From a virus: a stretch of 64,000 nucleotides of DNA. A model generated the notes under the pieces. That model searched no databases, was not told the DNA's origin, and was given only the letters and a program-made list of their open reading frames with translations. The stretch's first letter is position 1, and each line of letters begins with the position of its first letter. This document shows, piece after piece, positions 18,645 to 63,374 of the stretch. A program made the translations under genes and the position numbers. The stretch covers positions 1-64,000 of IMG/VR virus record IMGVR_UViG_3300037882_002024. One strand, given 5' to 3'.

Positions 18645-18950
18645 ATGAAAGAGATTGAGTACGTGGTGCGCCTGCGCGGCGACCCCAAGAAGCCGTGGAA
18701 CTATTTGACGAAGGTGCCGACGCCATTCGAGAACGACACCATGCTGGACGGCAAAGGCAAGATTGCCGAACGCCATGTCTCGCGACCGAACGCAGGCCTT
18801 GCGATGCGCATGAGCAAAGAAGACGCCGACGATTGGGTGCGTAAGGTGTGTTTCTCGCATCCGTGGATCGAAGTCGAGCGCGCCCCGGTGACCGACTTCA
18901 AGGCTGCCGAGCTTGTCGATGACCCGTTGGAAGAATTGGCTGCAGGCTAA
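18645..18950 (+). CDS. Hypothetical protein, 101 aa
   Basis: ATG 18645 preceded by ACCGAGGGAAGC, the leader motif seen before the primase. Small alpha/beta protein with a charged tail; the stop is inside the next palindrome. Not recognised. Confidence 0.75.
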   Translation: MKEIEYVVRLRGDPKKPWNYLTKVPTPFENDTMLDGKGKIAERHVSRPNAGLAMRMSKEDADDWVRKVCFSHPWIEVERAPVTDFKAAELVDDPLEELAAG

Positions 18951-28458: not shown

Positions 28459-29307
28459 ATGGCAGCCCACGATATTTTGGACGCGCCCGATGTCGAGAAG
28501 GAAGTGCCGGAAGGCATCATCGACGACGGCGTATGCAACGAGTATCACGAGAACGGCAAGCGTTGTCGGCGGCGTTGCATGCGTGGGGAGTTCTACTGTA
28601 AGACTCATTCTAATGTGCCGCGCAGGCAGCAAAAAACGTATATGTACTCGAAGCACTTGCCGACGCACTTGCGTAACGCGTACAAGCGCATTGCGGAGTC
28701 GGGCGACCTGCTAACGCATCAGCACGATATTGCACTGATGCAAGTGCGCTGCAATGAGCTAGCAGGGCGCTTGGCCAGTGGGGAGAGTAACGACCGCTGG
28801 CACAGTCTGCGCGAACAGTTCGAGCGCTTCCGCAATGCGAATCGGATGATGGGTTCCCCGGACGAGGCCACGCGCCAGCAGGCAGCGGTAGAGCAGCGTG
28901 AGGCTCTGCAGGCCGTTGACCAAATTATTTCGTCAGGCGTCGCTGATGAAGCTAATTGGGATGACCTGCAAAACGCGATTAGCTTCAAGAGTGAATTGCA
29001 AGCCAAGGAGTGGAAGCGCCTGCGTGAGATGCAAGCCGTGGCCACTGCTGAGCAGGTGCGCACCCTCGTGTTCGCTATCACCACCAGCGTGCTGCGCAAC
29101 GTCCCCGACGCGAATCAGCGACGCGCTATCGTGACCGATATTATGACGCTGCGCGTGTTCGACGTGTCGATTGCGTCACCGTTTCCCGAAGGCATGACTA
29201 ACGATGGCCGACAAGGTAAGCCGCCAGCGGACAATCAACGAGATTCTCAACCCATCGGAGACGCCCGACCCGCTGGGCAGCCCGATGATGGCGCAGCTAC
29301 TCAATGA
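28459..29307 (+). CDS. Probable terminase small subunit
   Basis: 282 residues; ATG 28459 with AGGGAG upstream. Directly precedes and overlaps the large terminase by 104 nt. Starts with a Cys/His cluster (CNEYHENGKRCRRRC...CKTH) that may bind zinc, then long helices (residues 90-250). No classical helix-turn-helix can be pinned down, so the call rests on position and helical content. The Gly/Asp/Gln-rich last 35 residues coincide with the overlap. Confidence 0.55.
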   Translation: MAAHDILDAPDVEKEVPEGIIDDGVCNEYHENGKRCRRRCMRGEFYCKTHSNVPRRQQKTYMYSKHLPTHLRNAYKRIAESGDLLTHQHDIALMQVRCNELAGRLASGESNDRWHSLREQFERFRNANRMMGSPDEATRQQAAVEQREALQAVDQIISSGVADEANWDDLQNAISFKSELQAKEWKRLREMQAVATAEQVRTLVFAITTSVLRNVPDANQRRAIVTDIMTLRVFDVSIASPFPEGMTNDGRQGKPPADNQRDSQPIGDARPAGQPDDGAATQ

Positions 29308-32212
29308 ATTTTGCTCGATGATCGAGCCGCCCAGCGAAGAGCTTCTGACGCTGCAGAACAAGTACGAGAACAGTTTCTACGAATTTACCAAGGCCATGTG
29401 GCCGATCATCGAGCCTGCGGCCCCGTGGGTCGATGGCTATATCGTGCAGTGCGAGTGTGAGCATTGGGAAGCCGTCCTACGCGGCGACATCAAGAAGCTC
29501 ATCATCAATCAACCTCCACGGCATGGGAAGCCCGTGGACGAACGGGCACTCGTCCTGATGGCCAGCGGCCAAAGGAAGATGCTACGAGATGTTGTTGTTG
29601 GCGATGCCGTTATCACTCACAAGGGGCGCGCCAAGAAAGTAACAGCAGTCTATGAGCAAGGTCTGCTGCCTGTGCTGCGCATCATGACGAACGCCGGGCG
29701 GGTAGTGCGCGCTGCATATGACCACCCTTTCCTAACGGCAGATGGATGGAAGCGCGCCGATCAGCTTCGACTTGGTGATTCTCTGGCCGTGGTGTCGATG
29801 TACGGCGGCTTTGATAAGTCATCGGACTATATGACCGATTACGAGTTCCGCTTGGCTGGCTATTTCATCGGCGACGGTGCCACTAAAATATATAAGTCAT
29901 CGAGCGCTTGTAGCATCACATGCAAAGACGCTGTCGAAGGCGCTGACCTTATGGCCTGCGCAGCGGCAATGGGCTTTGCGGTCAACCACACGCCGCGCAA
30001 CTATCGCTATAACTTTTCAGACGGCGCGCGTAGTTGGTTGCATGCTGTAGGGATTGCTGGCCACGGCTCGTACACCAAGCGCGTTCCCGAATTTGTTTTC
30101 CGTGGCAGCAATGACCAAGTAGCGCAGTTTGTTGGGGCCTACTTTGCGTGTGATGGTTATGTAAGCGCCAAGGGGCGCGGCCGCGAAAAGAGGATGCGAG
30201 AGGATTTAGAGTTTAGCTTTTCGAGTGTCAGTCGTGCGCTTCTTGAGGACGTGCAGCACTTGCTTGCGCGTCTTGGGATCATGATGCGGCTGCGTGCTAA
30301 GCGCCAAAAGATGGCCGATGGATCGAGCTACGACAGTTTTTTGTTGGTTGCCACCAGCCAAGAAGAGGTTGCTAAATTCGCTGATCGTATTCCCGTTCGG
30401 CACACAAAAGCTACGCGGCTTGCCAAAGAGAGGTTTCAGCGACAGCGCTTTAATGAGGCCTTGCACGCAGACAGCATCGTAGTAATTGAGCCGGACGGCG
30501 AAGCCGTTTGTCGGTGCCTGTCAGTGGACGACGATCAAACGTTTACGGCAAGCGACCTCGTTGTTCACAACAGCATACGCGCAGCGGTAGCGTTCTGCAC
30601 GTGGACATGGACGCAGAAGCCGCACTACCGCTTCATTTACGCAAGCTACTCGGACATGCTGGTAAAGCGGGACAGCATCCGCAGCCGCGACGTTATCCTG
30701 CATGAGTGGTATCGCAATTTTTGGGGCAACAAATTCCGGCTGAAATACGACCGCAACACGCAGCACGTATTCGAGAATACGCAACGAGGCTTCCGCTTTG
30801 CCACCACGCCCGGCGGCGTGGCGACAGGGGAAGGCGCCGAGATTATCATTGGCGATGACCTTGTGAGCGCCGAGGGGGCACGCAGCAAAGCCGAGAACGA
30901 ACTCGTGTACCGCTTCTGGACACAGACGCTCGGTAGCCGCGTGAACGATCCATCGAACGTGGCGCGCGTGCTTACCATGCAGCGCTTTAACCGTGCTGAC
31001 ATCGCGGGGCGCATGATCGCCGAGGAGCATGGCTACGAAACGCTCGTGCTTCCCTTCGAGTGCGAGCGTAAGCGCTACTTCCTGCCGACCAAAGAGAATG
31101 CTGTTGACAGGCCCCGTGATGCCATCGTGCCGACGAAGTTGCAGCTAGCCGACCCGGCCTTGATGGATAACCGCAAGGAAGGCGAGCTATTGTGGCCTGA
31201 GCGATTTTCGCCTACGGCGGCGAAAGAGTTCAAGCTGAGTATTGGGGCAGGCGTTCCGGGACAGCTACAGCAGCGTCCTAGCGCTGAAGGCGGCTCGATT
31301 GTGCGCTCGGAGCGCTTCCAGCTATGCTACGAGACGTGGATCGACGGTGCGCTGCACTTCGTTCTAGGCGAGGCCACCGAAGACACGCGCCCGCGCGTCG
31401 TGAAGGCGTCCGATTGCTTTTGGTTTCAGTGCGCTGATACTGCGCAGACAGCTACGACGAGTAATGACCCGACTGCTATCGGCACGTTCTGCCGCACGCC
31501 GTCCGGGGAGTTGATTGTTTACCACATCTTCTGCGAGCATCTGGAGTATCCGGACCAATGGCCCGCGATGTGTGAGCTACGCGTGGGACGCGCTGCATGG
31601 GACCGCTACAACCAGCGCTGGGCAGTGCGCGGGGCTGCGTTCCCGTGGCCGTGTCCTTTATCGTGGCAGGGCGTCGAGCCGAAGTCTACCGGGGAAAGCC
31701 TTATCCAGACAGCCCGGCGCGTCGGGATTGCCTTGCACCGCTTGAATGTGTACGCAGGCGACAAGCAGCAGCGTGGCGCGCCATTGGTGATGATGTATGA
31801 GCAAGGCATGGTATACCACTTGGCGTCCGGCCCGTGGCGCGTGGACATGGAAGAACAGATAAGCGAGTTCCCCAATGCAGCCCACGACGACATCTTCGAC
31901 ATCGTGAGCTACGCGGCGATGGAGTGCCAAACGATGGCGCTTACCATCTACAAAGGCGACTTGATTTACAACGCTAGCGTTGGCGAAACAATGGCACGCA
32001 ATGCCGAAGCGAGCGTACCGGACGTGTTTCGCGACCGTGGAAATGAGAGGCGTGATCGGTTGGCCGAGCCGGTCAAAGAGGCTGTGGGCGAAGTCGATGA
32101 GATTGCAGCTACACTTGCGGCGCTCGAAGCAGGCTACCAGCGTCAGCAAGTACAGGCCAACGAGCAGACATCGCCGCTTGACGACATCTTGCGTAGGCTG
32201 AATGGTGGCTAA
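29204..32212 (+). CDS. terL: Terminase large subunit interrupted by an intein
   Basis: 1002 residues as encoded; 655 after splicing. The ATPase P-loop PPRHGK-S is split exactly between Lys109 and Ser457 by a 347-residue intein. Downstream extein shows FIYASYSD, IIIGDDLV (Walker B) and a nuclease part with CADTAQTA and HDDIFDIVSYAA, the usual late Asp motif. The mature enzyme packages DNA into proheads and cuts it. Without splicing the P-loop is destroyed, so splicing is needed for packaging. The stop is in a palindrome. Confidence 0.95.
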   Translation: MADKVSRQRTINEILNPSETPDPLGSPMMAQLLNEFCSMIEPPSEELLTLQNKYENSFYEFTKAMWPIIEPAAPWVDGYIVQCECEHWEAVLRGDIKKLIINQPPRHGKPVDERALVLMASGQRKMLRDVVVGDAVITHKGRAKKVTAVYEQGLLPVLRIMTNAGRVVRAAYDHPFLTADGWKRADQLRLGDSLAVVSMYGGFDKSSDYMTDYEFRLAGYFIGDGATKIYKSSSACSITCKDAVEGADLMACAAAMGFAVNHTPRNYRYNFSDGARSWLHAVGIAGHGSYTKRVPEFVFRGSNDQVAQFVGAYFACDGYVSAKGRGREKRMREDLEFSFSSVSRALLEDVQHLLARLGIMMRLRAKRQKMADGSSYDSFLLVATSQEEVAKFADRIPVRHTKATRLAKERFQRQRFNEALHADSIVVIEPDGEAVCRCLSVDDDQTFTASDLVVHNSIRAAVAFCTWTWTQKPHYRFIYASYSDMLVKRDSIRSRDVILHEWYRNFWGNKFRLKYDRNTQHVFENTQRGFRFATTPGGVATGEGAEIIIGDDLVSAEGARSKAENELVYRFWTQTLGSRVNDPSNVARVLTMQRFNRADIAGRMIAEEHGYETLVLPFECERKRYFLPTKENAVDRPRDAIVPTKLQLADPALMDNRKEGELLWPERFSPTAAKEFKLSIGAGVPGQLQQRPSAEGGSIVRSERFQLCYETWIDGALHFVLGEATEDTRPRVVKASDCFWFQCADTAQTATTSNDPTAIGTFCRTPSGELIVYHIFCEHLEYPDQWPAMCELRVGRAAWDRYNQRWAVRGAAFPWPCPLSWQGVEPKSTGESLIQTARRVGIALHRLNVYAGDKQQRGAPLVMMYEQGMVYHLASGPWRVDMEEQISEFPNAAHDDIFDIVSYAAMECQTMALTIYKGDLIYNASVGETMARNAEASVPDVFRDRGNERRDRLAEPVKEAVGEVDEIAATLAALEAGYQRQQVQANEQTSPLDDILRRLNGG
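29531..30571 (+). other. LAGLIDADG intein in TerL
   Basis: Residues 110-456. N-terminal splicing block VDERALVLMASGQRKML with GD(A/S) turn, block B DHPFLTADGW with its His, two LAGLIDADG-type motifs (LAGYFIGDGA near 219 and FVGAYFACDG near 304), block F CLSVDDDQTF and block G VVHN followed by Ser. The first residue is Pro, not the usual Cys or Ser, so the first acyl shift cannot be standard. Insertion site is the ATPase P-loop, a favoured intein site. Confidence 0.92.
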
Positions 32213-36347: not shown

Positions 36348-37394
36348 ATGGCAATGCAGATTGGTCTTTTGAAGTCGTACACCGACGTCATTGCGCGCAT
36401 GTATCAAGAAATGAGCCGCGTGTTAGGCGTCACGGGCGGGAGCTATGCCGGGGGCAGTATGCTGGAGCTTGCCAACAGGCTGCTCAATCTCACAGTGGTC
36501 ACCAGCGATGACTATGACGTTGAGGAAGATTTTAACAAGCTGAGCTACGACCTGCGCACCAACGTCACCGCCGACAAGGTTTGGCTGCGCAACTTTTGGG
36601 ACAGCATTCAACAGCTAGACGACCACTATCAAGAGCATGGACCCACAGGCATCAACAGCGCGGTGGTGTCGCTGCAAACCATGCTAGAGTATTGCAACAC
36701 GCCCGGCGGCGGGGAGAAGTTTATGCACATGCTTAGCCCGTATTTCAGCGACTTGGTCTATATGATGACAGGCACGCGGCCTGCTGAGCCGTGGTACTAT
36801 CACGGCAAAGGCATCGAGTTTAACTTGACCAGTGGCAGCATGGCCTCGCGTGCCGTGGGCGGCGCGTTCACGCATAACGAAGACTATGACCCGAACTACG
36901 CCGAGCTAGTCCCGCTGGTCGAAGTCATCACAGCGTTTAGTGGCGGGAGCGCGCCGCCCACGGTAACGATTGCAGGAACCGACGACGAAGGCGAAACCAC
37001 AACGACGTGGACCTGCACACTGACAGGCAACAACCCCACAGGCCCCACATCCACAACGCTGAGCGCCGACCTTGCCACTGAAGGCTTTGTACGCGTCACG
37101 GTGGGGCTTGGTTCGATAACGGGCGTGGTCCGTGGAAGCGTGTTGGTGATCGCCTACGGCACCACCAAGCAAGAGACAGTCGTGGTGGAGAGCGTCAGCG
37201 GCAGCGACATAACCGCCGTGTTCCGCTACGATCATTCGTCGGGGGACAACGTGGATGTGATCCCGACTCACGAGACAACGCCGAGCGTGGCGAACCGCCG
37301 CATTCGCAGCGTGTCGAACATCACCATCGGCACCACAGGGCACGTTGCGGGCACCGTCCTTGTGGCCGGGCGCTGTGATCGTGTGGCTGCATAA
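36348..37394 (+). CDS. Probable structural protein, 348 aa
   Basis: Residues 1-190 are helical/mixed (LLKSYTDVIARMYQEMSRVL). Residues 190-345 are Thr/Ser/Gly/Val-rich beta sequence (PPTVTIAGTDD, RVTVGLGSITGVV) like Ig-like or decoration domains of phage virion proteins. No Cys-rich motif, no signal peptide. Function inferred from composition. Confidence 0.7.
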   Translation: MAMQIGLLKSYTDVIARMYQEMSRVLGVTGGSYAGGSMLELANRLLNLTVVTSDDYDVEEDFNKLSYDLRTNVTADKVWLRNFWDSIQQLDDHYQEHGPTGINSAVVSLQTMLEYCNTPGGGEKFMHMLSPYFSDLVYMMTGTRPAEPWYYHGKGIEFNLTSGSMASRAVGGAFTHNEDYDPNYAELVPLVEVITAFSGGSAPPTVTIAGTDDEGETTTTWTCTLTGNNPTGPTSTTLSADLATEGFVRVTVGLGSITGVVRGSVLVIAYGTTKQETVVVESVSGSDITAVFRYDHSSGDNVDVIPTHETTPSVANRRIRSVSNITIGTTGHVAGTVLVAGRCDRVAA

Positions 37395-37671: not shown

Positions 37672-37766
37672 TCGGCCTCGCGCTCGTCGCGGGCCTTGTC
37701 ATTGCAGGCGTCATCATGCTAGGGCTGGTGATGCCTGCGCTCATTTCGAGGAGTCGCAGGCGATGA
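37656..37766 (+). CDS. Single-span membrane micro-protein, 36 aa
   Basis: ATG 37656 with CAGGAG 9 nt upstream; stop 37764-37766 overlaps the GroES start (ATGA). One span (LIGLALVAGLVIAGVIMLGL) and a basic tail SRSRRR. Coupling on both sides supports it. Confidence 0.7.
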   Translation: MQDTLIGLALVAGLVIAGVIMLGLVMPALISRSRRR

Positions 37767-38062
37767 TTCTCAAACCGGTTGGCGAAAAAATTTTAGTCCG
37801 TCTCGACGACGGCGAGCGCACTATCGGCCAGATTGTCTTGCCGGACAGCGCCGTGCAGTTCCCGAATCGTGGCGTTGTCGCGGCGTTAGGGGATGGCCGC
37901 AACGAAGGCGATGGCCTTCTCCCCTACATGGTCATGGTCGGCGACCGCATCCTCTTCGACCGCTATGCAGGCATCGAGGTCACCGGGGCCGATGATGGCA
38001 AGCGCTACAAGATGATGCGCGAGCAAGACATCGTTGCCATCGACACAGGAGCAAGAGAGTGA
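37763..38062 (+). CDS. groES: Phage GroES-like co-chaperonin
   Basis: 99 residues, full GroES length. MILKPVGEKILVRLDDGE, IVLPDSAVQFPNRGVVAALGDG, VGDRILFDRYAGIEV and a final MREQDIVAID follow the Cpn10 fold in order, with a mobile-loop region of reduced size. It would cap the host GroEL to fold capsid proteins, as T4 gp31 does. No GroEL gene is visible. A half palindrome (GAAAAAATTTTAG) lies in codons 7-11. Confidence 0.92.
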   Translation: MILKPVGEKILVRLDDGERTIGQIVLPDSAVQFPNRGVVAALGDGRNEGDGLLPYMVMVGDRILFDRYAGIEVTGADDGKRYKMMREQDIVAIDTGARE

Positions 38063-38331
38063 AGAGTATCTTAGATAGCGCGTGCGCTGCGGTGTACGAG
38101 TGGAGCGACGGCTCGCAGGTGCGCAAGGTGGGAGAGTTCTGGCTAGCCATCAAGGTGGACGGCGCCTATCTCACACTCCACGGGTCAACGATGGCTGGGC
38201 AGACGCCCGAAAGCCTTCACAATGCGTGTCGCTTTGAAACGGCATCACTTGCCGCTGCTGAGTTGCGCCGCAGAGGCCTTGGGCCTGCACGCGAAGAGAT
38301 GACCACAGAGCCAGCAAGCGCGGGGGCGTGA
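38059..38331 (+). CDS. Hypothetical protein, 90 aa
   Basis: GTGA overlap with groES. Small alpha/beta, helix rich at the end (ASLAAAELRRRG). Last gene before the RNA region. Not recognised. Confidence 0.68.
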   Translation: MKSILDSACAAVYEWSDGSQVRKVGEFWLAIKVDGAYLTLHGSTMAGQTPESLHNACRFETASLAAAELRRRGLGPAREEMTTEPASAGA

Positions 38332-38369
38332 GGCTGGGAGAGCGCAGCCTCGCTACGCTCTGCCACATG

Positions 38370-38403
38370 GCGCCGGGGCAAAGTTTTTACAATGCTCCGG
38401 CGC
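38370..38403 (+). terminator. Strong hairpin, probable terminator
   Basis: GCGCCGGGGC pairs with GCTCCGGCGC (10 bp, one G-T), loop containing TTTTTAC. No T-run follows, so termination may be inefficient or rho-assisted. Confidence 0.55.
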
Positions 38404-38408
38404 TTAAA

Positions 38409-38445
38409 AATAATTAGTTGACATCTGCCGAAGTGATGCTAGGAT
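38409..38445 (+). promoter_or_regulatory. Promoter of the structured RNA/tRNA region
   Basis: AATAATTAG then TTGACA (38418-38423), 16-bp spacer, TAGGAT (38440-38445). It is the first strong promoter after 16.6 kb and no coding start follows it. Confidence 0.85.
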
Positions 38446-38451
38446 ACTTAC

Positions 38452-39130
38452 ATCAAAGACGCAAGGCCGATGCAAATGTGCTGACAGCTTTGCCGATGAG
38501 ATGCTCAGGAGTCAGAGTATAACTGACCACGATCTGAGCCGTGCGTTATTACGGCCCGCCGAGGAACAGGGGCGCACCTTGTCCGCTCTGGAGTCCGAGG
38601 GTAAATGACCGCGCGGGAAGGCGTTTAACGAGCGGCGTTGGGAGTGTTGCTTCGGCAGCACAGCGCCTAAAAAGCATCCGGTGGTGGGAGACCTTAGCGA
38701 GAGCTACGAGGCACCTGAAAAACATCCGGCGCGAGAGCGCCTAAAATATCGGTTGCGTTCTTCTGGTGAACAGGCCAGACCTGTGCATTCCTGCTGCACG
38801 AACGCATTTGCGGGCCGTCTTAGCGCTTGTTGGAAACCTGCGCTATGGCATTCCTTGGCCCGCACCCCTAAACTGGCTTGGTGTTTTGTTGTAAGGGCGC
38901 CAAGTCAGGGGCTGCAAGGAATGGTCATCTTGCAGCCCATTTGAACGCTAGCGCGCGAAAGCTCTTGATTGGGCAACGGGAGCAAGTAGCGCGCTAGCTA
39001 CCTAATACCCTTAAATGGGTAAGGCGAAGGCTTCGGCCTAGCCATCACTAGGCCTGTGCGCCGCTCAGACATGACGCACAGACAATCCTAGGCCACCGCA
39101 GCAGTCCCTCCGTTTGCTGCGGTGCAAGGT
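38452..39130 (+). ncRNA. Large highly structured non-coding RNA
   Basis: About 680 nt without a credible gene but packed with stems: GCTCAG/CTGAGC with inner GTCAG/CTGAC (38503-38539); GGCGTT/AGCGCC with GTGTTGC-TTCG-GCAGCAC (38634-38667); GCGGGCC/GGCCCGC enclosing TAGCGC/GCGCTA (38810-38863); GCTGCAAG/CTTGCAGC (38911-38936); a perfect 10-bp GCTAGCGCGC/GCGCGCTAGC (38947-38998); GGCCTAG/CTAGGCC (39035-39054); CCGCAGCA/TGCTGCGG (39096-39122). The segment GCxCCTxAAAAxCATCCGG occurs at 38663 and 38711. Size, its own promoter and position before phage tRNAs recall the ornate RNA classes GOLLD and ROOL; class membership is untested. Confidence 0.7.
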
Positions 39131-39165
39131 GAAAGGCCTGCTGAAAGGCTGAGTAACCTTCTTCA

Positions 39166-39236
39166 GTGGCACTTGTGTAAGGGAAACATACCGGCTCGTT
39201 AGGCCGGCGATGGGAGTTCGATTCTCTCGTGCCACA
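39166..39236 (+). tRNA. tRNA-Asn (GTT), encoded CCA
   Basis: Acceptor GTGGCAC/GTGCCAC (7 bp), D arm GTGT/ATAC, anticodon stem CCGGC/GCCGG with loop TCGTTAG, T arm GGGAG-TTCGATT-CTCTC, discriminator A followed by encoded CCA (39237-39239). The loop reads C at position 33 rather than T, so the anticodon call is likely but not certain. Confidence 0.8.
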
Positions 39237-39304
39237 CCACACACGCCGCAGTCGCGGCTCACGATGCTCTGTAAAGGGCGCTCCGCAAGGGGTTGACAAC
39301 GATG

Positions 39305-39346
39305 CCCGGCTGGTCGGTTTTCGAGGCCAAGGCCAGCCGGGTTTTT
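39305..39346 (+). terminator. Rho-independent terminator in the tRNA cluster
   Basis: CCCGGCTGG (39305-39313) pairs with CCAGCCGGG (39333-39341), then TTTTT. It could end the structured RNA/tRNA-Asn transcript. Confidence 0.88.
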
Positions 39347-39419
39347 GATGCGATAGCTTAAACGGTAAAGCAACCGCCCTCTAAGCGGCACTACTGAGGT
39401 TCGACCCCTCTTCGCATCC
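39347..39419 (+). tRNA. tRNA-Arg (TCT)
   Basis: Acceptor GATGCGA/TCGCATC, D arm GCTT...AAGC with GG in the loop, anticodon stem CCGC/GCGG with loop CCTCTAA giving TCT, T arm GAGG-TTCGACC-CCTC. Position 33 again reads C. No encoded CCA. It would read AGA codons, rare in this GC-rich genome. Confidence 0.8.
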
Positions 39420-39420
39420 T

Positions 39421-39527
39421 ATCCACGAAGCCGGAAACGCGGACGCGCGACGTTAGGCACGTTCTGGCCGCAATGCTGGCAGCGGGTTTACGGAACCAAT
39501 TCGCAGGTGCAACGCCTGCCGTGGATA
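39421..39527 (+). tRNA. tRNA-like gene with extended core
   Basis: Perfect acceptor ATCCACG/CGTGGAT and T arm GCAGG-TGCAACG-CCTGC (the usual TTC of the loop is TGC). The D region resembles class II tRNAs (AAGCCGGAAACGCGGACGC). Total 107 nt is too long even for tRNA-Leu/Ser; the excess (about 39455-39500) forms its own small stems. Anticodon uncertain (AGG if the loop is TTAGGCA). Confidence 0.5.
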
Positions 39528-39529
39528 CT

Positions 39530-39602
39530 GCGCTCTGTGGGCAACCGGAGAAGCCGCCCCGCTTAGGTGGGGAGAATGCTGGTTCAATTCCAGCCGGGCG
39601 CA
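39530..39602 (+). tRNA. tRNA, anticodon uncertain (TAG or TTA)
   Basis: 73 nt. Acceptor GCGCTCT/CGGGCGC with a 7-66 mismatch, D arm GGC/GCC, anticodon stem CCCC/GGGG around GCTTAGGT, T arm GCTGG-TTCAATT-CCAGC, short variable loop. The 8-nt loop makes the frame ambiguous: TAG (Leu codon) or TTA (would pair with UAA). Confidence 0.6.
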
Positions 39603-39609
39603 TTGCAAG

Positions 39610-39713
39610 TAGGGTCGTGCCCGAGTTGTCTAAGGGTGACCGGATGCAAGACGCAACCTCTGGCGCACCGGGCCGATAGAGGGTGCGCCACAGGTGCGAA
39701 TCCTGTCGCCCTG
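39610..39713 (+). tRNA. tRNA-like gene with extended anticodon loop and long arm
   Basis: T arm ACAGG-TGCGAAT-CCTGT, D arm GCCC/GGGT, anticodon-type stem CCGGA/TCTGG closing a 14-nt loop, and a long variable arm GGCGCACC/GGTGCGCC (8 bp). The acceptor pairs imperfectly (TAGGGTC/CGCCCTG); an alternative AGTAGGG/CCCTGCT pairing extends to 10 bp with its flanks. As at 39421, the T loop starts TGC. Anticodon not assigned. Confidence 0.5.
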
Positions 39714-39732
39714 CTTGCTTTTTAGGTGCATC

Positions 39733-39969
39733 ATGAAGGCCATCTTTTTGCTCGTAACACTTCTCGGCGCAGGCTGCGCGCAATCCAACCTCGAAGACGC
39801 TCAGCGGCGCTGGCAGCCCCAGCATGGTCGCGAGCAAGAGCGCAAGACGTACACAGTAAAGCGTCGCACGCCATCAGGCGTCATCATCACCTACACCGTG
39901 ACGCCTAACTACAAGCCGGAAGACTTCAAGCATGCGCGCACCTACAAGGTGCCTGTGCGCGCTGACTAA
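39733..39969 (+). CDS. Small lipoprotein, 78 aa
   Basis: ATG 39733 with TAGGTG upstream. MKAIFLLVTLLGAGC is a short signal with lipobox LGAGC (Cys15). The mature part is basic and beta-like (RTPSGVIITYTVTPNYKPEDF). Likely anchored in the envelope; possible superinfection-exclusion or spanin role, unproven. Confidence 0.75.
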   Translation: MKAIFLLVTLLGAGCAQSNLEDAQRRWQPQHGREQERKTYTVKRRTPSGVIITYTVTPNYKPEDFKHARTYKVPVRAD

Positions 39970-55958: not shown

Positions 55959-58900
55959 ATGAGCAACGCATTGAAGCAGGCGCTAGGCGCCAAATCATTT
56001 GGGCTGCGGGCGCCTGACATCGGCTCGACGCCGATGCTGTTCGGCAGCGCCCGAGGCGCCGGGCTGGGACTGGGGACAAGCCCCAGCAATACGCTGACGC
56101 ATCACAACGAACAGTATCGGCACTATGCGGGCTGGGTATACGCTTCGATTCGGCCTATTGCGCAGTCGGTGGCACGGCAGGCGGTGCGCGTCGCCCGTGT
56201 GCCCAAACGCCGAAATGCACGCACCGCGCCCATGACAGCCAAGAGCCACATTTTTACCTCGCAGGGGCCAGTATCCAAAGATCGCGCAGCGCAAGAATTG
56301 TGGCTGCGGCGCACCTTGCCGGGGGCGCTCAAGTCGCACGCCGAGACAGCCGAGATTCTCGAATGGCACCCGATCCTCGACATCATCAACAAGCCTAACC
56401 CCATCATGGCGCGCTGGGCATTGTTCCTCACCACCGTGGCCAGCATCGACCTTACAGGCAAGGCCTACTGGTGGATAAAGCAAGGTGACGAAGACGGCGA
56501 GCCTCTGCAAATCTGGCCGATGCCAAGCCATTGGGTTGCGCCAGTTCACACGAAGCAAAAGCTCTTCGAGTCGTGGGATATTCGGCCCGATGGCGCCAGC
56601 AAGCCCATCAACGTTCCACGGAAACAAGTCGTGTGCTTCTACACGCCCGACCCTGCAAACCCGTTCAACGCTTATGCCACGCTGCAAGCGCAGGCCCGCG
56701 CCGTCATCAGCGACGAGGCGATTGCCGAGGCGCAGCGCCAATCATTTCAGCGCGGCATCTTCCCCGGCTTGGCTGTGGTGATGGGCAGGCTTCCCGATGC
56801 GATGGGCAACGCAGGCGCAGGTGAGCGCCCCTTGCTCACCAACGATCAGCGCCAGCAAATTACCATCGGCATCAAGCAGATGTTTCAGGGCGTGTACAAC
56901 TACGACGAGCCGTTGATTTTGGATCAGTTGATCCAAGACATCAAGCGCATCACGCAGTCGCCGCGCGAGATGGACTTCATGCAAAGCGGCCTTGCCACCA
57001 AAGAAAAAATCACACAGGCCTTTGGCACCAACCCCATCGTGATGGGGCAAGTAGAGAACGCATCGCGTAACAGCGCTGCGACGGCTCAGCAAATCTTTTA
57101 CGACCTAGCGGTAAACCCGAAGATCGCGTTGATGAGCGAGTTCCTGTCGATGTGGTTCAGCCCGGAGTTTAGCACGCCTGACGAGGAATTGCTGCTTTAC
57201 ATCGAAGAGGCGCGTTCAAGCGATCCCGATTCCGACCGGGAAGACTATCGGCTACTGAAAGACCACTTCGCCATTGATCGCAACGAAATGCGCGCAGGCC
57301 TGCGCGGCTTGCCGCCAATTGACAGCGGCGAAATGATCGCGGTGCCTGCGGGCCTGACATGGATGGATATTGCGGATGTGCAAGACACCAACATGGCGCC
57401 GATGCTGCTTGACGCTGAGGCTGCGCCTGTGGCTAGCGAAGACCCAAAGCCGACCGACGAAGAAAAGCCCAAAGAGAATCAGCAGCAGGACGAGCAGGTG
57501 CCCGACGCAGGCGCGGCGGCGCTCAACGGCGCGCAAATTGCTAGCCTGCTTTTGGTCATCAAAAAGATCACGTCCGGCGAGCTTACGCGCGAAGTGGCGA
57601 TGGCCATTCTTGGGGCCTCGTTCCCAACAATGGACGAGGCTGTTTTAGCCAAGATCATCGAAGGCGTTGTTGTCAAGCCGCCTGCGCCCACTGTCGATGA
57701 AGTGCGCAGCGTCGTTGCGCAGGCTCTACAGGCCCGCGAAGACGAAGAGCTAACAGACCGCATTGGCACCAAGGCCCCGGTGCCGAACATCGCGCAAAAC
57801 GAAGCGTATGATTGCGGCGCTGCTGCAGCGCGTGCCGTGGCTGAGCATTACGAAATGGTCCACGAATGGACGTCACAGGATTTTGTGATGGCACTCAACA
57901 CTTCGGACGAGGCAGGCACCGAGCCGCGCCACATCGTTGACCTTTTCAAGCACAACGGTTGCGACGTGCAGTACGGCAAGCATTGGACGCTAGGCAGGCT
58001 CTTCGACAGCCTGCGGCGCGGTGTTCCGGTGGTGTGCTGCATTCAAGGCCTGACCTTTGGCGACGACGACGACCGCGCCAAACAGCAGAACGGCCATTGG
58101 GTTGTTGTCGATGGGGCTGCGGACAATCGCATCTTCTACATGGACCCGTCCACAGGGGCGCATGAGCAAGCCGATTGGCAAACATGGAAAGACAATTGGA
58201 AGGATCGAGGCGTTGACGGGACGCCTTACGAGCGATACGGGATCGCCGTCGGCCCGCCGCCCAAACCCGTTGTTGACGAGCAGAGCAACACGATGAACGC
58301 GCGCGCTTGCGTGCTGCGCCTCAAGTCGCATGGCTACTATTGCCGCGCCAAGTCGCTGGGCCTCGCAGACAGGATCGCCGAAATCAAGGGATTCTTCAAG
58401 GCGCAACATCAAACCATTTACACAGCGCTAATGACGTACTATCGACGCCAGCGCGCCGCCATCGAAGCGAAGCTCGATGACTGGTCGAAGAGCGTCAGTT
58501 TTGATGGCATTGCGCCGATGACTGGCGACCTGCTAGCCACGTGGCCTTACGACGGCCAGAAGGCCACCGACCAAGAAGATAGCGCCATGCAGCTAGTAGA
58601 CAGCCTGCTCCCGTTGCATGCGACGACAGCGCGGCTCGTTGGAGCGGTGCGCGACGCTATCTTGCAGGTGGCACTCAATGCGGCAGGCAAGGAATACAGC
58701 GACCTTGAGCCGATGGCCGACGAGGAAAAAGCCAAGCGCAAGCCAAAGGTGGACCGCACGCCTTTGCCAAAACCGATTCGAGAAGTATGCCACGATTATC
58801 TCGGCCGCGTAGTCGCCGAACCGTATTGGGAAGACATGACGTATCGGGTGCGCCTGCAGATGGCTCGTTCGATCCGACGAGGCCTCGCGCATGGTGAAGA

Positions 58901-59243
58901 TCGCGCCGCCATTGCGCTGCGCGTGCTGGCGGTCGTGAGCGAAGGAAACGACGCCGTGCGTGCCGACCTCATCGCCACCACTGAGGCCAACGGCGCGTAC
59001 AACCTTGGGCAACACGCCACACGGGCGCACCTGATTGCGCAGGGCGCCAACATCACTAAGCTATGGCAGGTTGTCGAAGATGGCCGCGAGCGGGCCAGCC
59101 ATGACGAAGCGAACGGGCAGGAAGTGAAGCACAAAAACAAATTCCGCGTCGGCAAAGAATGGTGCTTGTATCCGGGGGCGCAGAATCTTTCGCCGGGAGA
59201 GCGCTGTCGGTGCCGCTGCACAGCGATCAGCATTCCGCACTAA
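55959..59243 (+). CDS. Portal / C39-like peptidase / MuF fusion protein
   Basis: 1094 residues in three parts. Residues about 45-470: HK97-type portal (HYAGWVYASIRPIAQSVA, LEWHPILDIINKPNP, KQVVCFYTPDP, TNPIVMGQVENASR). Residues about 608-760: papain-like C39-type peptidase domain with QNEAYDCGAAAA (Cys619), NGHWVVVDG (His713) and YMDP (Asp729). Residues about 860-1094: MuF-like head-morphogenesis domain (ATTEANGAYNLGQ, WQVVEDGRERASHDEANG, PGERCRCRC). The portal forms the head vertex; MuF is a minor head protein. The peptidase may cut head proteins or be injected. Confidence 0.9.
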   Translation: MSNALKQALGAKSFGLRAPDIGSTPMLFGSARGAGLGLGTSPSNTLTHHNEQYRHYAGWVYASIRPIAQSVARQAVRVARVPKRRNARTAPMTAKSHIFTSQGPVSKDRAAQELWLRRTLPGALKSHAETAEILEWHPILDIINKPNPIMARWALFLTTVASIDLTGKAYWWIKQGDEDGEPLQIWPMPSHWVAPVHTKQKLFESWDIRPDGASKPINVPRKQVVCFYTPDPANPFNAYATLQAQARAVISDEAIAEAQRQSFQRGIFPGLAVVMGRLPDAMGNAGAGERPLLTNDQRQQITIGIKQMFQGVYNYDEPLILDQLIQDIKRITQSPREMDFMQSGLATKEKITQAFGTNPIVMGQVENASRNSAATAQQIFYDLAVNPKIALMSEFLSMWFSPEFSTPDEELLLYIEEARSSDPDSDREDYRLLKDHFAIDRNEMRAGLRGLPPIDSGEMIAVPAGLTWMDIADVQDTNMAPMLLDAEAAPVASEDPKPTDEEKPKENQQQDEQVPDAGAAALNGAQIASLLLVIKKITSGELTREVAMAILGASFPTMDEAVLAKIIEGVVVKPPAPTVDEVRSVVAQALQAREDEELTDRIGTKAPVPNIAQNEAYDCGAAAARAVAEHYEMVHEWTSQDFVMALNTSDEAGTEPRHIVDLFKHNGCDVQYGKHWTLGRLFDSLRRGVPVVCCIQGLTFGDDDDRAKQQNGHWVVVDGAADNRIFYMDPSTGAHEQADWQTWKDNWKDRGVDGTPYERYGIAVGPPPKPVVDEQSNTMNARACVLRLKSHGYYCRAKSLGLADRIAEIKGFFKAQHQTIYTALMTYYRRQRAAIEAKLDDWSKSVSFDGIAPMTGDLLATWPYDGQKATDQEDSAMQLVDSLLPLHATTARLVGAVRDAILQVALNAAGKEYSDLEPMADEEKAKRKPKVDRTPLPKPIREVCHDYLGRVVAEPYWEDMTYRVRLQMARSIRRGLAHGEDRAAIALRVLAVVSEGNDAVRADLIATTEANGAYNLGQHATRAHLIAQGANITKLWQVVEDGRERASHDEANGQEVKHKNKFRVGKEWCLYPGAQNLSPGERCRCRCTAISIPH

Positions 59244-61805: not shown

Positions 61806-63374
61806 ATGAAGATCACGATTGCGCTCAAGGCGTTCTTGCTCGGCAAGGGGCTGGTCAGCGCGAATGCACCGGAAACCGATGTTCGCAGCGCGGCGCTCAA
61901 GGCGCTCAGCGATGGCAAGATGACCACGGCGGAGCTTAACGACCTGTGTCGCGAAGAAAACGGCGCAGGCACACTCGACGCGCTGGTAGCCAAGGCGCTC
62001 AACGAGAAGCTGGCGGCGCTCAATCTCGCGCCAGCAGAGACGAAGAACGCCACCGAGAAAGCCTTCGACGCCGCCATGTCGGGCTTCAAGACCAAAGACA
62101 GCACGACAGCGTCGGCCTTCGGCGGCGTGGCCTTCGGGATCAATCCCGAAGTGAAGAGCATCGGCGATATGTACTCGAAGAGTCGCTCCGAGTTGTTCTT
62201 GCCGGAGCGCACGCGCAGCGGCATGAAGCGCGTCGATGCGGGGCGCCCGGCCATGTTCAACGGCGAGCGCCTGTACGGCACGTCGCAGATGGGCAAGGCG
62301 GTTGCGCAGGCCTACTTCAAATGGCAGATCGCTTGCACGAGCCAGCCGAATGATATTCCGCGCGGCCTGCGCATGACCGATCACGACAAAGAAATTTTGA
62401 AGTTTGCGCTGCACGAGTGCGAATGGACAGGCCTCATCAATCCGCACCCCGAAGACGGCGGCGGGATTGCGGTCAAGCGGCGCAAGCTCCAAGAATTTGA
62501 AGTGAAGGCGCTGCTCGACGATGCCACCAGCGGCGGTATCGAAATCGCACCCATCGAGTTCGACGACGTGTTGGTGACGACGCCGGTGTTGTTTGGCGAA
62601 CTCTTCCCGTTGGTCAACGTAGTGGACGTGGCGCGGGGGCGGCGCATGAAGGGCGGCACCGTGGGCAACCCCACCTTCGGGGCTACGGGCGAAGGCACGG
62701 GCATCACCGCCTTCGATACGACAGCCTTCGTCGCGTCGTTCGACACGACGATTTACGTGGCCAGCGCGTCGATGGAAATCGGGATGGATTTTGAGGAAGA
62801 TTCGCCCACGAATATCGGCGGCATCATCATCGACAAGTTCGGCGAAAAGGCAATGGAGTGGTACGACCGCGTCATCGCCGTTGGCAACGGGACCACGGAG
62901 CCGCAAGGTATCTCACTGGCTACGGGTACGACCGTTGTGCCCTCAGACTTTTCCACAAGTGGCCCGCCAACCGTTAGCGACTACGAAGGCTTGATGTTCG
63001 GCGTCAACAAAGCGTACCGCAATACCAAGGGCAGCCGCAACGTGTACATTGCCAACGAAGTGTCGTACCGCAACGCGCGCGCCATTCCGGTCGGCCCCGC
63101 CGACGAGCGCCGCGTCTTCGGCATGACGCATGGCGACTACCAGATTCTAGACACGCCGTACAAAGTCCAGAATGACATCACGAACAGCACGATCATGTAC
63201 GCCAACCTTGGTTACTACCGGCTATACCGACGCCTCGGTGTCACGGTGCGCAACGAGACGGGCGGCAACTACTTGGCCAGCCGCAACCAGCGCCTCATCG
63301 TGGTGCGCCTGCGCACTGGTGGCAAGTTGGAGCAAGGCGGGGCGGCAGCCATCATGACCGACGCCAAGTCGTAA
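61806..63374 (+). CDS. Major capsid protein, HK97 fold
   Basis: 522 residues. The first 100 or so residues are helical and Ala/Lys-rich, the expected delta/scaffold region removed by the protease. The rest shows HK97 capsid features: DDATSGGIEIAPIEFDD, an E-loop-like segment, ASASMEIGMDFEEDSPTNIG, EWYDRVIAVGNGTTEPQGI and the P-domain strand RNETGGNYLASRNQRLIVVR. Builds the icosahedral head. Probably the most expressed late gene. Confidence 0.93.
   Translation: MKITIALKAFLLGKGLVSANAPETDVRSAALKALSDGKMTTAELNDLCREENGAGTLDALVAKALNEKLAALNLAPAETKNATEKAFDAAMSGFKTKDSTTASAFGGVAFGINPEVKSIGDMYSKSRSELFLPERTRSGMKRVDAGRPAMFNGERLYGTSQMGKAVAQAYFKWQIACTSQPNDIPRGLRMTDHDKEILKFALHECEWTGLINPHPEDGGGIAVKRRKLQEFEVKALLDDATSGGIEIAPIEFDDVLVTTPVLFGELFPLVNVVDVARGRRMKGGTVGNPTFGATGEGTGITAFDTTAFVASFDTTIYVASASMEIGMDFEEDSPTNIGGIIIDKFGEKAMEWYDRVIAVGNGTTEPQGISLATGTTVVPSDFSTSGPPTVSDYEGLMFGVNKAYRNTKGSRNVYIANEVSYRNARAIPVGPADERRVFGMTHGDYQILDTPYKVQNDITNSTIMYANLGYYRLYRRLGVTVRNETGGNYLASRNQRLIVVRLRTGGKLEQGGAAAIMTDAKS

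Follow-up and report, generated by a model that had tools for sequence, protein, structure and literature searches.

A candidate large structured non-coding RNA ahead of the tRNA cluster of a tailed phage

Genomic setting and coding capacity

The window analyzed here, a 64,000-nucleotide stretch of DNA corresponding to bases 1-64000 of an IMG/VR virus record of 87,710 bases, derives from a tailed phage carrying terminase, portal and major capsid genes (Table 1). The gene-free stretch at 38450-39165 is flanked upstream by a phage-encoded Cpn10/GroES-like co-chaperonin gene and one more small ORF, and a series of small genes follows downstream. A codon-usage score, trained on the long ORFs of the same contig, placed the contig's longest low-coding run at 38161-39811 (approximately 1650 nt including the tRNAs), followed by a run of 540 nt. 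ORFs tested on both strands of the stretch matched no PHROGs family, and the longest plus-strand ORF had no tblastn relative in phage records. The first-pass annotation, made from the sequence, had read 38452-39130 as devoid of genes and adjacent to a tRNA cluster. Both statements were borne out, the former by the codon-usage score and the lack of PHROGs and tblastn matches, the latter by tRNAs at 39166, 39347 and 39530.

The last of these tRNAs was not assigned by ARAGORN, and the mitochondrial mode of the program returned Leu(UAG). Two further tRNA-like elements lie below the ARAGORN default threshold: the ends of the one at 39424-39529 are complementary and acceptor-like (AUCCACG/CGUGGAU), and the one at 39622-39714 may be a tRNA-Leu(CAA) whose variable arm is long. 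Both apparently carry G for U at T-loop position 55. Elsewhere on the contig, a 14-bp palindrome (CTAAAWWWWTTTAG) occurs in about 26 copies and two near-copies, many of them intergenic (e.g., at 18947, 27876, 28363, 32209, 39966, 41904, 48885, 50926, 52287 and 55935). The copies at 32209 and 39966 each overlap the stop codon of the gene before them, and the palindrome was absent from all four loci checked in related phages.

Table 1. Features of the window and of the candidate RNA
Feature	Position	Strand	Remarks
Terminase with intein and LAGLIDADG domain	29204-32212		Intein by Pfam, terminase by tblastn
Cpn10/GroES-like co-chaperonin	37763-38062		Pfam E = 7e-20; upstream of candidate RNA
Sigma-70-like phage promoter TTGACA-N16-TAGGAT	38418-38445	+	10/12 consensus positions; predicted start near 38451
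Putative mature ncRNA (~715 nt), promoter to tRNA-Asn 5' end	38451-39165	+	Both ends inferred
5' part	38461-38638	+	Hairpins 38461-38493 and 38503-38539; candidate long-range strands 38541-38549 and 38630-38638
UUCG hairpin GUGUUGC-UUCG-GCAGCAC	38644-38661	+	Pair probability 0.98-1.00
Repeat copy 1, hairpin-arm end and A-rich linker CGCCTAAAAAGCATCCGG	38664-38681	+	Zero mismatches to pattern
Repeat copy 2, CACCTGAAAAACATCCGG	38712-38729	+	Zero mismatches to pattern
GNRA hairpin GGCGC-GAGA-GCGCC, then shortened third linker UAAAAUAUCGG	38728-38752	+	Hairpin probability 1.00
3' domain, series of hairpins	38754-39130	+	Pair probabilities mostly > 0.95
3' domain hairpins, first half	38754-38806, 38809-38864, 38873-38908, 38909-38938	+	Three-way (first), 15 bp (third), 11 bp (fourth)
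3' domain hairpins, second half	38947-38998, 39006-39021, 39035-39054, 39094-39124	+	10+7 bp (first), 11 bp (fourth)
Candidate tertiary/kissing contact CAUUCCUUG x CAAGGAAUG	38849-38923	+	38849-38857 with 38915-38923; 9 Watson-Crick pairs
tRNA-Asn(GUU)	39166-39239	+	CCA encoded; same predicted transcript as ncRNA
Terminator-like GC-rich hairpin CCCGGCUGGUC/GGCCAGCCGGG, then UUUUU	39305-39345	+	z = -4.31 (39295-39345)
tRNA-Arg(UCU)	39347-39419	+	
tRNA with irregular anticodon loop CCCCGCUUAGGUGGGG	39530-39602	+	30.2 bits, barely over cut-off
Portal protein fused to C39-peptidase-like and Mu F-like domains	55959-59243		
Major capsid protein	61806-63374		

Promoter, fold and repeated elements of the stretch

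The promoter ahead of the stretch belongs to a recurrent set. This family, a recurrent promoter-like sequence (AAAATAGTTGACA) followed 16-17 nt downstream by a -10-like hexamer, occurs in about 15 places on the contig, all on the plus strand; the count of AGTTGACA sites is 15, most of them with a -10-like hexamer. Between this promoter and the tRNAs, a plus-strand scan detected neither an internal promoter nor a terminator. The terminator-like hairpin beyond tRNA-Asn was missed by the terminator scan because loops were limited to 3-8 in that scan.

The 679 nt at 38452-39130 folded more stably than all of 100 shuffled sequences (z = -5.2), and the opposite strand was weaker (z = -3.4). Folding windows covering the stretch ranked first among 156 on the contig in energy excess; other windows of the contig attain comparable z values. 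The excess stability is carried by the 3' part (38754-39130; z = -6.94, with none of 100 shuffles equally stable), and the 5' part (38453-38760) did not rise above its shuffles (z = -1.26). A second strongly folded site at 53.5-53.7 kb was identified as a hairpin between small genes and was set aside.

Approximately 10 hairpins were predicted at pair probabilities exceeding 0.9, both in folds of the RNA by itself and in folds that held the tRNA in its cloverleaf. The long-range closure of the molecule is ambiguous: with the cloverleaf fixed, 38630-38638 paired with 39058-39066 (P = 0.59) and 38541-38549 with 39071-39079 (P = 0.44), and with the cloverleaf not fixed a 9-bp pairing spanning the tRNA was predicted (38535-38543/39253-39261). 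The candidate tertiary contact within the 3' domain competes with part of the stem at 38909-38938, and 38786-38792 offers an alternative 7-nt partner. In the hairpin at 39094-39124, the loop (39105-39113, UCCCUCCGU) exposes CCUCC, the anti-Shine-Dalgarno core, possibly by chance.

Most of the structural statements of the first-pass annotation stand. Its own strong promoter for the stretch is confirmed in the sequence, TTGACA-N16-TAGGAT being one member of a phage family of about 15 copies. The eight or more long stems that it had counted correspond to at least ten hairpins with pair probability above 0.9, the perfect 10-bp stem was found as GCUAGCGCGC/GCGCGCUAGC (38947-38956/38989-38998), and the UUCG hairpin was recovered at 38644-38661. 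The repeated element GCxCCTxAAAAxCATCCGG fared less evenly: it is present in two zero-mismatch copies, but its excess over chance is marginal, as an equal or better repeat arose in 31 of 1000 shuffles (about 3%). As RNA, the hairpin-linker unit reads ...CC-URAAAARCAUCCGG and comprises the two exact copies and one shortened third. Complementarity over eight letters between the linker GCATCCGG and CCGGATGC, near 39640 in the low-scoring tRNA-Leu, was too common to build on.

Comparison with known phage RNAs and search for relatives

GOLLD and ROOL are large phage RNAs located near tRNA islands, in which kissing loops and A-minor contacts hold the structure together; they share this niche, and each is defined by its own sequence and fold (PMC12286853). 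The candidate RNA resembles GOLLD (RF02032), a large protein-free RNA of phages and prophages with many hairpins that often lies near tRNA islands, in being phage-borne and tRNA adjacent. tRNAs sometimes lie within GOLLD RNA itself. Unlike the candidate RNA, many GOLLD members exceed 800 nt, and GOLLD has a universally conserved 3' region. With ROOL (RF03087) the candidate shares a similar length (the ROOL model has 574 positions), a phage location near tRNA islands and a complex fold. GOLLD and ROOL form RNA cages, a homo-14-mer and a homo-octamer, respectively.

The first-pass annotation had proposed that the stretch might belong to GOLLD or ROOL. This was not supported by the cmsearch check, as no Rfam family matched the region up to E = 5. 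An Rfam 15 scan of the window returned tRNAs only, and the search of the region with E values up to 5 found nothing relevant and no tRNA match before 39166. Run on the whole record without a positive control, the ROOL model had no match anywhere; the 14 control genomes contain no ROOL RNA either. The GOLLD model, likewise run without a positive control, had no match at 38452-39130; its sole match on the record, 43 kb away at 82056-82296, scored 15.2 bits (cut-off, 150) with E = 1.3 and was rejected as noise, much of the model being deleted in the alignment.

Size and a location beside tRNAs, which the first-pass annotation had taken as hallmarks of GOLLD and ROOL, proved not to be diagnostic, since other unclassified phage RNAs, such as that of phage K, share them. 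Phages ICP1 and K produce abundant long ncRNAs that their authors likened to GOLLD and ROOL and assigned to neither (PMC7567579, PMC9241854). As predicted for the candidate RNA, the ICP1 (approximately 800 nt) and phage K RNAs are long phage transcripts without ORFs, and the authors' comparison was based on size, abundance or location. In contrast to the candidate, which is a prediction from the DNA, they were shown by RNA-seq, and the ICP1 RNA has no tRNA neighbor. These unassigned ncRNAs thus provide a precedent for an orphan RNA of this sort.

No relative of the candidate RNA was found by blastn against phage records with E values up to 10 (two 28-30-nt matches lay inside annotated protein genes), in the plasmid records searched or in linker-pattern scans of IMG/VR. 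Two-copy matches to the linker pattern in IMG/VR belonged to other phages, where they fell in AT-rich DNA that lacks tRNAs. A further 29 single-copy matches lay mostly inside long open frames, none had a good second copy nearby, and only one of the loci examined had a tRNA, kilobases off. They were therefore regarded as chance matches.

The phage itself is isolated. Relatives sought by capsid and terminase were recovered as seven short contigs with capsid similarities of 43-60%, and blastn did not find the candidate RNA in any of them. In the best of these (L048; 57% terminase identity), a homologue of the gene at 36348 is followed by one ordinary 148-amino-acid gene and then the portal gene, with no RNA. 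This layout indicates that the RNA and the tRNAs sit in a block of approximately 18 kb that is present here and missing from L048. The closest relative lacks the RNA at the same place, so the RNA is no core component of the lineage. The terminase of L048 is a fragment that starts 3' of the intein insertion point, and the portal gene of another related contig, L002, was judged by eye to contain a long, possibly intein-like insertion. A search of a genome collection for related prophages found none, and the planctomycete host assumed in the first-pass annotation was not confirmed.

Alternative explanations and the favored reading

A folding excess by itself can stem from palindromes or structured leaders, and the main rival to an independent RNA is a leader of the tRNA operon. 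The promoter would then serve tRNA-Asn, the other tRNAs would be reached by read-through, and the approximately 700 nt would consist of spacer and processing hairpins, lost once RNase P has cut. The site at 38418-38445 is the only family promoter found upstream of tRNA-Asn, the inter-tRNA spacers are structured too (z = -3.5 for the tRNA part), and odd and degenerate tRNAs give the cluster a ragged appearance. However, 700 nt far exceeds the needs of a leader, the next low-coding run on the contig being 540 nt, and the folding excess along the contig peaks inside the stretch. We regard this explanation as rather unlikely, although it is the strongest competitor.

Less probable again is a diverged member of GOLLD, ROOL or another described large RNA family that is too remote for the Rfam models. 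Its size, tRNA neighbor and phage location would agree with such an origin (PMC12286853), and the Rfam GOLLD model spans only 416 positions, but neither the region search up to E = 5 nor the whole-record runs with the ROOL and GOLLD models returned anything there. We give equally little credence to a set of small RNAs or regulatory hairpins or of remnants of decayed genes and tRNAs, lying side by side by chance. The 3' part is a line of separate local hairpins, and ARAGORN with relaxed settings finds degenerate tRNA-like shapes in the stretch. Such shapes occur on both strands, however, the search up to E = 5 found no tRNA before 39166, and on the plus strand the promoter is single and no terminator was detected within the stretch.

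The non-coding statistics, the dedicated promoter and the folding excess give good support to a large structured ncRNA in front of the phage tRNAs, and this part of the first-pass proposal is supported, whereas membership in GOLLD or ROOL is not. On balance, the stretch probably encodes a real structured ncRNA. It would be a large structural RNA similar in kind to those of other phages, although it matches no known family. With slightly better than even confidence, we favor a promoter-driven large ncRNA that is released by RNase P from a co-transcript with tRNA-Asn, works in a GOLLD- or ROOL-like manner and belongs to no described family. Judging from the promoter sequence, transcription would begin near 38451 from a member of the promoter family of this phage, and the transcript (38451-39345) would cover the approximately 715-nt RNA and tRNA-Asn and end at the hairpin at 39305-39345. 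By analogy with general tRNA processing, RNase P would cut between 39165 and 39166, where tRNA-Asn begins, and thereby release the 3' end of the ncRNA.

The energy statistics suggest a 3' domain of approximately 10 hairpins joined to a looser 5' domain of hairpin and A-rich-linker units. The product would most likely be a structural RNA that accumulates to high levels in infected cells and acts like the GOLLD- and ROOL-type phage RNAs. By the same analogy, from which we infer both oligomerization and function, the linker adenosines and complementary loops may form A-minor and kissing contacts within one copy or between copies. More speculatively, and with considerably lower confidence, the RNA could be the first known member of another class of large, ornate RNAs of phages, unrelated in sequence to GOLLD, ROOL or OLE. 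Its assembly would proceed via complementary loops and via linkers with a palindromic CCGG, and it would be co-transcribed with tRNA-Asn.

GOLLD and ROOL assemble into large cages built of RNA only. Should the orphan described here prove real, several RNA sequences with no relation to one another would occupy one niche, that of a large, structured RNA beside phage tRNAs. If true, the sharing of this niche by unrelated RNAs would hint at a common job in infection.
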